The position numbers were made by a program, and so were the translations under genes. From positions 1 to 64,000 of the forward strand of contig QCTJ01000001.1 in the NCBI GenBank assembly GCA_003211205.1: 64,000 nt of DNA, given 5' to 3'. The DNA is from Synechococcus sp. AG-673-F03. Its GTDB lineage: Bacteria; Cyanobacteriota; Cyanobacteriia; PCC-6307; Cyanobiaceae. Positions 13,661 to 42,365 of this stretch are shown in pieces. Each line of letters begins with the position of its first letter. Position 1 is the stretch's first letter. Below the pieces are notes generated by a model. It saw only the letters and a list, made by a program, of their open reading frames with translations. It did not search any database and had not been told where the DNA came from.

Positions 13661-13864
13661 TCAGTCCTCGTCGAAGGGTTCCTGATCGATCAAATGGGCG
13701 TATGGAGCGGTGAGCTCCGGTCGATGAATGGCGAGGGATCTCAATAGATGCCAGTCATTCAGGCCTTCAAAGGGAGTTAGGTAGTCGTCGTACTCCAAAC
13801 GGCGCGCCAGTGTCGCAACGGATGCCTCATCAAAAGAAGCCAATTGCTCCGGAGTGATCAGCAT
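13661..13864 (-). CDS. DUF2555 family protein
   Basis: This small acidic protein (67 residues from the ATG at 13864; 72 from a codon at 13879) resembles the cyanobacterial DUF2555 family. Conserved-looking stretches are LARRLEYDDYLTPFEGLNDWHLLRSL and the C-terminal PYAHLIDQEPFDED. It is the first gene of a pair with coaBC. No biochemical role is known for the family. Confidence 0.75.
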   Translation of the reverse strand: MLITPEQLASFDEASVATLARRLEYDDYLTPFEGLNDWHLLRSLAIHRPELTAPYAHLIDQEPFDED

Positions 13865-13935
13865 GCAGGCACGAAGCACTAATGATCATTTTGCCTTCGA
13901 GTGCGTTGGAAAACCGGCGCTAGGTTGATCTGCCC

Positions 13936-14008
13936 GGGGACTTAGCTCAGCTGGTAGAGCGCTGCGATCGCACCGCAGAGGTCAGGGGTTCGAATCCCCT
14001 ATTCTCCA
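13936..14008 (+). tRNA. tRNA-Ala (CGC)
   Basis: A 73-nt cloverleaf: acceptor GGGGACT/ATTCTCC, D arm GCTC/GAGC, anticodon stem CTGCG/CGCAG with loop ATCGCAC (anticodon CGC, reading GCG), T arm AGGGG TTCGAAT CCCCT and discriminator A. The G3-U70 wobble pair, the alanine identity element, is present. Position 6-67 is a C-U mismatch. No CCA is encoded. Confidence 0.93.
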
Positions 14009-14017
14009 TCGGGACTT

Positions 14018-14191
14018 ATGAGATCAAGGTTGAATTGGAGTGCTGATGCAGAACAGTCGCTCAAGGAAGTTCCTTTTTTTGTGCGACCAGCCGTTCGCCG
14101 CAGAATTGAATCGATGGCACAGGAGTGCCAGCTCGACTGCATCGATTCAGCGTTTTACGCCGAAGCCAGGGCGAAATTTGCGAAACGCTGA
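14018..14191 (+). CDS. PCP-reductase-domain mini-protein (PF08369-like)
   Basis: This 57-residue reading frame is easily missed because of its size. It reads WSADAEQSLKEVPFFVRPAV, then an arginine-rich RRRIESMAQ, then an Asp/Ile/Asp and tyrosine-rich end. This matches the pattern of the protochlorophyllide-reductase 57-kDa-subunit domain: W-x-x-A, L-x-x-V-P-F-F-V-R, R-R-x-I-E. The domain is found at the C-terminus of ChlB and in small stand-alone cyanobacterial proteins. It starts 9 nt after tRNA-Ala and may be read from the tRNA promoter. The stand-alone role is unknown; a link to chlorophyll metabolism is inferred from the domain only. Confidence 0.75.
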   Translation: MRSRLNWSADAEQSLKEVPFFVRPAVRRRIESMAQECQLDCIDSAFYAEARAKFAKR

Positions 14192-14194
14192 ATC

Positions 14195-14347
14195 ATGATC
14201 AGGCCCACGCTTGGCTACCGACGGGCGAGCAGACCTTCACTGCTGATGGCGCTCAGCATCACGGCCTGTCTTTCAGTGCTCGTCAGACCGTCCGCTCTTT
14301 TGACCTACGGGCTGATTCTTCTGGCAGGTGGCCTTTCCCGCCGCTGA
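14195..14347 (+). CDS. Candidate small membrane peptide
   Basis: A 50-codon frame begins 3 nt after the PCP mini-gene stop and in the same frame. It has a basic N-terminus (MIRPTLGYRRASR) followed by two hydrophobic stretches, SLLMALSITACLSVLV and ALLTYGLILLAGG, and ends in RR. About two thirds of third codon positions are G or C, like its neighbours. This looks like a two-pass or hairpin membrane peptide, but no homologue is recognised and no clear ribosome-binding site is seen, so it may be chance. Confidence 0.4.
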   Translation: MIRPTLGYRRASRPSLLMALSITACLSVLVRPSALLTYGLILLAGGLSRR

Positions 14348-14412
14348 TTAACGCTGTTGAGAGCGTTCATTCAGGCCATGCGGTAAAAGAGAGGTTGAGA
14401 AAGCCCCTATTG

Positions 14413-14613
14413 ATGTCTCAGTCGAAAAGAGAACAGGTAGTGAGCCATCTGCGCTACATCCGCCAAGAACTCCGTGAAATGCATCAGGGCGTCATGGAAG
14501 ACGGCCTCCTGCCAGAAGCCGGCGAAGTGCGAGGCGTGATGGCCCAAATGGAAGCGCTACTTGAACTGCTCGAAGGCAAAAGCTCTCGCAAAGCAAAAGC
14601 TGAATCCGACTGA
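14413..14613 (+). CDS. Small conserved helical protein
   Basis: This 66-residue charged protein starts at an internal ATG of a longer frame and reads MSQSKREQVVSHLRYIRQEL, then an acidic helix-rich middle (RGVMAQMEALLELLEGK) and a lysine-rich end. It is predicted to be soluble and helical. It is third in a row of very small genes after tRNA-Ala and precedes ycf20. I do not recognise a domain. Confidence 0.6.
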   Translation: MSQSKREQVVSHLRYIRQELREMHQGVMEDGLLPEAGEVRGVMAQMEALLELLEGKSSRKAKAESD

Positions 14614-14840
14614 ATCTTGAGGTCTCCACTTGCCAAGCAGAGCTGTTCAGGCTTTTCTACGAAAATAACCACGTCCTCAACCGGACAATTTTGGGCTTTT
14701 TGCATCAAAAGCCTCAATATGTAGCGGTTGACAAAGGCAATCACCCCATAAATGGTGTATACATTGAACGGCAGGGTTTCGGGCCGGGTGATGGGGATCA
14801 TCGGTTGTTATCCCTGCCTCTCTTTCAAGAGGTTGCCAAG

Positions 14841-15182
14841 TTGACAGCCCGTCTTCAAGCAACACGCCTTCAGCGAACAGTCGGAGAAGCCGCGACCAGG
14901 TTGGACCTGTGGGCGACCAATCCATGGCGACGTACGTCACTACTGCTCATCGCTCTAACAGCAAGTTTCATGATCGGAAACGGCGTTGCTTCCGTCTCTG
15001 GTGCTCTCAATCTGATGGACCCTTTGGCAGCGATGCTCACCGTGGGGCTGATGGAACTCATGGTGCGGGCAAGAAGACACTGGGCCAAAGATCGCGACAG
15101 TCACTTAGGTCGACAATTGCTCGACATGACGCGAATTGGGCTGCTTTATGGCCTCTTACTGGAGGGATTCAAGTTGCTTTAA
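14841..15182 (+). CDS. ycf20: Ycf20-like protein (DUF565)
   Basis: This small membrane protein has the Ycf20/DUF565 hallmark NPWRRTSLLLIALTASFMIG followed by two or three hydrophobic segments and a C-terminal GLLYGLLLEGFKLL. Ycf20-like proteins in plants and algae affect thermal dissipation of excess light; the cyanobacterial role is not settled. The frame is open further upstream (TTG at 14691), but a TTG at 14841 is chosen. It has AAGAGG 8 nt upstream and gives 113 residues, close to the family length. The start is uncertain. Confidence 0.75.
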   Translation: MTARLQATRLQRTVGEAATRLDLWATNPWRRTSLLLIALTASFMIGNGVASVSGALNLMDPLAAMLTVGLMELMVRARRHWAKDRDSHLGRQLLDMTRIGLLYGLLLEGFKLL

Positions 15183-15260: not shown

Positions 15261-16766
15261 ATGGCTGGAGAGCATTACTACCTCGAGCTGGATCCACCGG
15301 AAGATCGCCTGCGACATGCGCCTCACGTGGTGATTGTGGGCGGCGGATTTGCGGGTGTTCGTGCCTGCAAGGCACTGGCCAAGGCAGACGTCCGCATCAC
15401 CCTGATCGACAAACGCAACTTCAATCTTTTCCAGCCTCTGCTCTATCAGGTTGCGACGGGACTGGTCTCCAGTGGTGATGTAGCGACCCCACTGAGACAG
15501 CTGGTTGGACGCCAAAACAATGTGCAGGTCCTGCTTGGTGAAGTCACTGAGATCAAGGCTGAAGACAAGCAGATCATCTTCAGCGGCAAGGCTTACAGCT
15601 ATGACCACCTTGTGCTGGCAACAGGTTCGGGAAGCACCTTCTTCGGTCATGAAGAGTGGCGGACCTTTGCCCCACCGATGAAAATTCTTGAACACGCCGA
15701 GGAGATTCGGCGACGTCTGCTGATGGCCATGGAGCAGGCCGAACAGACTCCTGACCCTGAGGCACGTCGTTTCCTGCAGACCGTCGTGATCGTTGGAGGA
15801 GGGCCCTCCGGTTGCGAAATGGCTGGAGCCGCTTCGGAGCTGATGCGCAATGCCATGCGCAAGGAATTCCGCCAGCTGAATCTGGAAGACACGAGGATCG
15901 TTGTGGTCGACCCAGGCGACCGCGTACTGAGAGCGATGCCGGAAGATCTATCTCAGGCTGCACAGAAAACCCTGTCTGCTCTCGGTGTGGAGTTTCTGTT
16001 CAAAGGGCGTGTGCAGAGCATGCAACCCGGTGAAGTGATTGTGGGAACACCCGATGGTGAGCTCAAGCTGCAGGCAGCCACAGTGATATGGACCGCCGGA
16101 GTACGGCCATCTCATCTGGGCCGCATGTTGGCGGATTCCGTGGGCTGCAAGACGGACCGTGCCGGCCGCGTGATCGTAGAGCCAGATTTCTCCATGAAGG
16201 ATCATCCCGAGATCCGGGTGGTGGGCGATCTCTGCTGCTACAAGCACACTCGAGATGGAAATCAGCTGCCTGGAATGGCAGGACCTGCAACCCAGGCCGG
16301 AGGGTTTGTGGGCAAAGACATCGCCGCAATTGTGGCCGGAGGATCACGGCCGAACTTCAGCTGGTTTGATTTCGGCAGCATGGCCGTACTGGACCGTGTC
16401 GATGCGGTCGCAGACTTGCGTGGATTCAAATTCAAGGGCGGTCTTGGCTGGCTGCTTTGGGCCGCTGCTCACCTCGCCTTCATGCCCAATGAGGAGAATC
16501 GCTTCTCATTGCTCCTGAAATGGATCTTTGCGGTGGTCTCTCAGGCCAGAGCTTCGATGTTGCTGACGGGCATGCCTAGTCAGCACATGGGCTTGGACGC
16601 ACCGGATGCTGCGTTCCCGATGGCACCAGGAGTAGGCCCATCCATCTCAGAGCCCGGAGCAGCACTGCGGGCAGCGATGGACTACTACTCCAATCAGGTT
16701 TCCGGTCTTTCGCCTCAACCCAAAGCAGGAGAGTTCACAGAGGATTCCGCCGCTGCCATCAAATAA
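15261..16766 (+). CDS. ndbB: Type 2 NADH dehydrogenase (NDH-2)
   Basis: This 501-residue monotopic flavoprotein oxidises NAD(P)H and reduces quinone without pumping protons. The FAD-binding motif [17 protein letters not shown] is near residue 25, and the second Rossmann motif [15 protein letters not shown] is near residue 180. A third conserved stretch, [20 protein letters not shown], carries the FAD site. The C-terminal third has hydrophobic segments and is longer than in E. coli Ndh. Its last 52 nt overlap pyrB on the other strand. The specific cyanobacterial paralogue letter is uncertain. Confidence 0.85.
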
Positions 16767-42279: not shown

Positions 42280-42365
42280 AGCGGCCCTGAGGTCTCGGGT
42301 GAAGTTCAGTTCCGATACTGTAAGGGCCCCGGCCCTGAAGAGGGTCGATCCTGTCGCGAGATTTG

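Follow-up and report, generated by a model that had tools for sequence, protein, structure and literature searches.

Do the very small genes that follow tRNA-Ala in Synechococcus sp. AG-673-F03 form a single thylakoid operon, and what could be the role of the 66-residue protein, P66, encoded among them? A first-pass annotation of the window, the 64,000-nt stretch of DNA analysed here, had described four plus-strand frames behind this tRNA and had suggested that they could be a small thylakoid-related operon partly read from the tRNA promoter. We favour, with a probability of about 0.6, a reading in which the row would comprise at least three transcription units instead of one thylakoid operon, and in which P66 would be a near-invariant hairpin adaptor or regulator.

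Gene content of the row behind tRNA-Ala

The tRNA-Ala gene (anticodon CGC, 13936..14008, plus strand, as all features below unless stated) was identified with ARAGORN and Rfam (RF00005). All four frames were found behind it. The first (14018..14191) encodes a stand-alone PCP_red protein of 57 aa (PF08369, E 1.4e-15, 57.4 bits, cut-off 32.5). It is followed by ORF50 (14195..14347), a candidate membrane peptide of 50 aa with the motif RPSALLTxgLIxLAGgL, by the gene of P66 (14413..14613), a near-invariant protein with two predicted helices, and by ycf20 (DUF565, 14841..15182; PF04483, 46.3 bits, cut-off 27). The divergent neighbour is isiD, of the DUF2555 or ssl0461 family (13661..13879, minus strand; NF050006, 96.3 bits, cut-off 90; PF10742, E 2.2e-26), and coaBC is also located upstream on the minus strand. 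Downstream of ycf20 are the gene of an NAD(P)H/FAD oxidoreductase of NDH-2 type (15261..16766; PF07992, E 3.7e-46, NDH2_C below cut-off) and pyrB.

The picocyanobacterial family repeatedly shows the gene order coaBC, isiD, tRNA-Ala, (PCP_red), ORF50, P66, ycf20, NDH, pyrB. Within 21 loci picked via the NDH gene, some of which end at contig ends, P66 is present in all 21, tRNA-Ala in 19, ORF50 in 14 and PCP_red in 5. Ten reduced-genome loci (L114-L117, L119-L124) retain isiD, P66, ycf20 and pyrB; no tRNA, PCP_red, ORF50 or NDH gene turned up in them. The first-pass annotation had staked the small frames on their presence in close relatives, and the locus comparison finds them kept there. Its description of the row is confirmed apart from the start of ycf20.

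Frame-specific substitution supports the three smallest genes. In-frame pN/pS is 0.15 for PCP_red and 0.30 for ORF50 (nine close loci) and 0.016 for P66 (ten close loci); it exceeds 1 in both other frames of each gene, reaching 1.2 and 2.5 for ORF50. As judged by this test, PCP_red, ORF50 and P66 are real genes.

PF08369 is the C-terminal domain of ChlB, a subunit of the light-independent protochlorophyllide reductase. The 57-aa protein of the window corresponds to that domain alone and lacks the catalytic part of ChlB. The same genome has, on contig C6, a second PCP_red-domain frame, whose 657 codons presumably encode ChlB. Other cyanobacterial families likewise have short open frames (about 62-145 codons) with this domain. 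Among 45 de-duplicated loci, selected for having P66, 22 have an intact-looking PCP_red gene and one has a broken copy; the search found none in the other 22. This tally refers to DNA reaching at least 1.2 kb upstream of P66 and is affected by L048-L051 and L053, where the tRNA itself is beyond the examined DNA or unseen. A genome-wide search in G006, G012, G013, G019, G020, G023, G026 and G030 returned only a frame of more than 500 codons, which supports absence. Going by these counts, PCP_red is dispensable and freely lost. At L063 (same place as L012; G015), the PCP_red frame behind the tRNA contains in-frame TAG and TAA codons, a sign of decay in one lineage. In L045-L047, about 1.2 kb of DNA with no PCP_red match separates tRNA-Ala from ORF50.

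ORF50 was matched in 38 of the 45 loci (tblastn, E up to 1). It gave no convincing match in Pfam, NCBIfam or PHROGs, and its candidate membrane nature is a judgement by eye.

The start of ycf20 differs from the one read before. The DUF565 gene ending at 15182 stands (PF04483, E 5.8e-12), but the TTG at 14691 does not stand as its start. Over its first 50 codons, the TTG-14691 frame covers DNA that is conserved but frame-shifted in many relatives, and this stretch is not coding. In the alignment, one column holds a start codon (TTG, GTG or ATG) in each of 14 close loci; in the window this is the TTG at 14841. With this corrected start, the protein has 113 aa, fewer than the earlier frame, and its C-terminal part matches the Ycf20/DUF565 family above cut-off. 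A minus-strand ORF (14484-14801) that spans the gap between P66 and ycf20 was judged noncoding by eye; one-base indels are found inside its alignment.

Conservation and distribution of P66

Over the 45 de-duplicated loci the mean amino-acid identity of P66 is 97.6%, against 51% identity at third codon positions. For codons 1-56 (43 loci), pS is 0.72 and pN is 0.0065. By these measures the first 56 residues are nearly invariant and synonymous sites are near saturation. Extreme purifying selection on P66 is shown by these data, as its coding status is by the frame test above. Among 36 members of the P66 family, R17 and P34 are invariant and K5, L20, R21 and L49 nearly so. Orthologue identity falls to only 60-70% in seven loci of the small-genome genus g31.

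Comparison of stretches of two divergent genomes, G001 (800 kb) and G034 (797 kb), places P66 seventh of 289 reciprocal-best proteins, with 95.5% identity for a median of 71.7%; this rank is approximate, overlapping ORFs having been thinned by score. The proteins above it are a 4Fe-4S protein, which we take to be PsaC, an ORF with no Pfam match, PsbH, S-adenosylhomocysteine hydrolase, an epimerase-type protein and an acyl-carrier-type protein. The Pfam-less ORF (L179:13354-13671), ranked second with 98.9% identity over 87 aa, could be a further tiny orphan or else a frame read wrongly. The near-invariance of P66 throughout most marine Synechococcus and their near relatives suggests an important job. 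Being as conserved as PsbH- and PsaC-type proteins, P66 may take part in an important interaction, perhaps overlooked since the gene is tiny. Few phototrophs are as abundant as marine Synechococcus and Prochlorococcus.

A member of the P66 family was found in 248 of 250 genomes of the picocyanobacterial family. In a phylum sample, matches were obtained in 36 of 292 genomes, all 36 belonging to this family. A further search gave a match in 37 of 37 genomes of the family and in none of 23 others. Paralogues with about 30-62% identity are scattered through the same genomes.

Searches for known relatives returned no convincing match. In Pfam, the window protein matched Protein_K (E 0.014) and DUF6674 (E 0.028), both below cut-off. 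The best Pfam matches over the family members, MerR-DNA-bind (0.0021), Stonustoxin_helical (0.0039), CdaS_N (0.0045) and GST_C (0.0052), are unrelated to each other and were taken as chance. NCBIfam gave no match, and PHROGs gave only phrog_1713 (E 0.099). In the PDB, the lone match at E <= 0.001 was 3jqh (1.4e-5, 2.4e-5), where several repeats were matched; it was also taken as chance. A phage origin was considered and rejected: tblastn with P66 or one paralogue found no match in phage records, and none of 24 matches of a pattern search in viral contigs is a relative. We found no published account of P66, a weak negative given the thin coverage of subscription journals. Within these searches, P66 is a lineage-specific near-invariant orphan, with no family model or convincing structural relative.

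The orthologue is not universal in the family. In genera g4, g33 and g209 (26 of the 250 genomes), the top hit to the P66 family is weaker, with E between 1e-22 and 7e-14, and the strongest of these, in G491 (E 1e-22), falls inside the range of true g31 orthologues. IsiD had no match in these 26 genomes, 18 of them being named as lacking it and the remaining 8 missing from the match list. Four more of the 250 genomes have no IsiD match (G029, G503, G638, G639), and G503 and G638 have no P66 match of any kind either. The locus was read in two of the 26 genomes, G033 and G077. There, coaBC, ycf20 and pyrB are contiguous and both P66 and isiD are gone. Since the P66 orthologue is missing from these two genomes and diverged in g31, P66 is not indispensable everywhere. 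G033 and G077 each contain, in addition, a second, diverged DUF565 gene (L216, L217, L220, L222).

These observations bear on the possibility that P66 is a photosynthesis or iron-stress accessory tied to IsiD and ycf20. Its gene adjoins both isiD and ycf20, and it is absent together with isiD. Moreover, in G033 a distant P66 paralogue (L086 / L229) lies between two genes of CP43/CP47-type antenna proteins (PF00421), presumably pcb. However, the joint loss may result from one deletion of neighbouring genes, and it therefore shows linkage, not function. In addition, ycf20 remains in G033 and G077, and the antenna neighbourhood is known from one genome. We consider this role unlikely.

Proposed transcription units and the ycf20 leader

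A conserved promoter-like element, GGTAAAAG, is located at 14382..14389 inside CATGCGGTAAAAGAGA. This element or a close variant is found 30-36 nt before the ATG of P66 in 49 of 53 loci, a set that is non-independent because it includes close relatives (L071 and L110 read alike); the shuffle rate is 0.01. It would act as the promoter of P66. A consensus promoter scan returned no sigma-70 site in the window. Downstream of P66, an intrinsic terminator was called in 17 of 41 loci, compared with 4 of 123 shuffles, and its stem varies between lineages; the other 24 loci show none, nor was one detected in the window. No plus-strand terminator was found in the window behind the tRNA, PCP_red or ORF50, or between P66 and ycf20. 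As the adjacency of P66 and ycf20 is very stable, some read-through is likely.

The preferred arrangement, drawn from sequence comparison, would be as follows. A first unit would start with tRNA-Ala and extend into ORF50, taking in PCP_red where that gene is present. A second would be P66, with its own promoter and, in many relatives, its own terminator. In the third, a promoter of its own and a short structured leader would precede ycf20. Read-through from the tRNA promoter, as proposed for part of the row, is plausible for PCP_red and ORF50, the gaps being 9 nt from the tRNA to PCP_red and 3 nt from PCP_red to ORF50. It is not the simplest explanation for P66, preceded by its own element, or for ycf20, which has its own leader.

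The alternative is one small thylakoid operon, extending from tRNA-Ala to ycf20, driven by the tRNA promoter and serving jointly in chlorophyll supply or light dissipation. Ycf20 (DUF565) is linked to thermal dissipation. The first-pass interpretation is partly supported: the frames are kept in close relatives, and the photosynthesis link holds by family for PCP_red and ycf20 only, with IsiD added on the opposite strand. All three of these belong to library families. The genes are also on the same strand and tightly spaced, their order is kept across many genomes, and the window itself shows no terminator between them. The single operon, by contrast, is not supported. It is weakened, though not disproved, by the element of P66, by the terminators found after P66 in relatives and by how freely PCP_red is lost: of the 45 loci, 23 gave no such gene or a broken one. 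P66 and ycf20 also persist in the ten reduced-genome loci cited above, which yielded neither the tRNA nor PCP_red, ORF50 or NDH. We consider one operon distinctly improbable.

The gap between P66 and ycf20 contains a conserved leader that, like the near-invariance of P66, is new in the row as seen in our alignments and had escaped the first-pass annotation. In the window, a -10-like box, TATACA (14758..14763), precedes a segment (14770..14826) with GGCAGGG, GGCCGGGTGATGGGGATC, CCCTGCC and a T-rich tract. The same order, with the T-rich tract in many loci, is seen ahead of ycf20 in relatives. In 24 aligned sequences the box reads TATACA in 14, TAGACA or TAAACA in 4 and other letters in 6, usually 6 nt before GGCAGGG; it would be part of a promoter. 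The core GGGTGATGGGG is strictly present in 41 of the 53 loci (a looser pattern gave 45, including false rows such as L080 and L048). Among the 11 pairs of the predicted hairpin, none has a double compensatory change. The single-sequence fold has a z-score of -1.46, and 15 of 200 shuffles are equally stable. As far as alignment and folding go, the hairpin rests on conservation rather than covariation. An Rfam scan of the leader (E up to 5) gave a single match, Dictyostelium_SRP (E 3.7), taken as chance. Elsewhere in the window, the psbNH RNA (42297-42355; RF01753, 70 bits) is the sole non-tRNA Rfam match above gathering score.

The central part of the leader belongs to a multi-copy motif, GGC(C/T)GGGTGATGGGGAT(C/T). 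A slightly relaxed 18-letter version of it matched 19 of 19 same-genus genomes, 1-6 times each, and 3 of 11 from other families. Reversed controls gave no match to the 18-letter pattern in 30 genomes; for a looser 15-letter pattern with one mismatch, one control match was found in each of 6 of 40 genomes. The genome of the window has four copies, at 14782-14799 in the window and at C7:45692-45709, C7:53433-53450 and C45:3488-3505. We aligned 57 distinct copies, many of which are followed by terminator-like stems, as read by eye. Twin copies in the same direction, 138-198 nt apart, occur in 14 distinct loci, and predicted outward-facing terminators flank both sides in six of these (L232, L240, L258, L263, L269, L277). 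Together with the corrected start of ycf20, the motif provides a further testable target.

The GGCCGGGTGATGGGGATC-type motif of marine Synechococcus is possibly related to the picocyanobacterial ncRNA Yfr103. Yfr103 is described as a multi-copy RNA conserved in marine Synechococcus, of 290-328 nt and with seven paralogues in CC9605 (PMC5069720). The spacing of the twin motifs would fit that length. The ycf20 leader, in contrast, carries just one motif and would measure about 55-60 nt. A shorter stretch, GGGTGATGGGGATC, which comprises 14 bases of the motif, is found in the start region of a sigma-70 gene (L237:1785-1799, and also L233, L239, L241, L243 and L245). Translation of two of these six genes gave matches to Sigma70 regions 1.2, 2 and 3. 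This sharing may be due to chance.

Predicted fold and possible partners of P66

The AlphaFold2 model of the P66 single chain is a hairpin of two helices, residues 5-29 and 33-53 (pLDDT 86.1, pTM 0.64). Search for structural similarities using Foldseek gave no match at E <= 0.001. The two-helix hairpin is a generic fold, too common to fix a function. The best small matches include Rop/Rom, with Foldseek TM scores of 0.74/0.86 and an E of about 1.2 for 1rop. VIA-align gave Z 7.6 for Rop (rmsd 2.0 over 55 residues), and Z 8.2 for a transposase, 7.8 for AvrRps4 and 7.7 for 14-3-3. All these matches, and the UVR-type ones given below, fall in the range expected by chance for helical hairpins.

Extreme constraint throughout the core suggests that P66 touches, at many points, a partner that is just as constant. 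The hairpin would probably dimerise into a four-helix bundle, and P66 would act as a small adaptor or regulator upon this almost invariant partner. The latter could be the proteolysis or repair machinery, an RNA or the photosynthetic apparatus.

For the first of these partners, P66 would be a UVR-like hairpin adaptor that binds ClpC or UvrB/UvrC in the manner of the McsA and UvrC hairpins and steers proteolysis or repair. The model superposes closely on such hairpins: VIA-align gave an rmsd of 0.6 over 45 residues for the C-terminal domain of UvrB (Z 7.0), 1.5 over 51 residues for McsA (20% identity, Z 7.6) and 2.4 over 55 residues for ClpC (Z 7.4), the aligned stretches being presumably UVR or middle domains. 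However, these Z values are below 8 and tied with those of unrelated hairpins, and the Foldseek search was empty at E <= 0.001. At the sequence level, UVR (PF02151, which we assume to be the family of this domain) is absent from the best 25 of 36 Pfam families matched by the 36 P66 members (E up to 10). We consider a UVR-like function quite doubtful.

The RNA option would make P66 a Rop-like four-helix bundle that aids the pairing of complementary RNAs. Its predicted hairpin resembles ColE1 Rop/Rom in size and arrangement, variants of Rop/Rom recur most often among the small full-length structural matches, arginines R14, R17 and R21 lie along helix 1, and the RNA-like multi-copy motif is directly downstream. 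However, no sequence relation to Rop was found, phmmer and profile searches giving no Rop chain at E <= 10. Identity in the Foldseek matches, at E about 1.2, is 9-14%, and the transposase, AvrRps4 and 14-3-3 chains score equally or higher. R14 is not kept across all paralogues, and P66 is present in L114-L116, where the ycf20 locus has no motif. This makes a Rop-like function very improbable. Its extension, in which P66 would be the first member of a family of Rop-like, RNA-pairing proteins in picocyanobacteria and would serve short RNAs that carry GGCCGGGUGAUGGGGAUC or its complement, the ycf20 leader included, is more improbable still.
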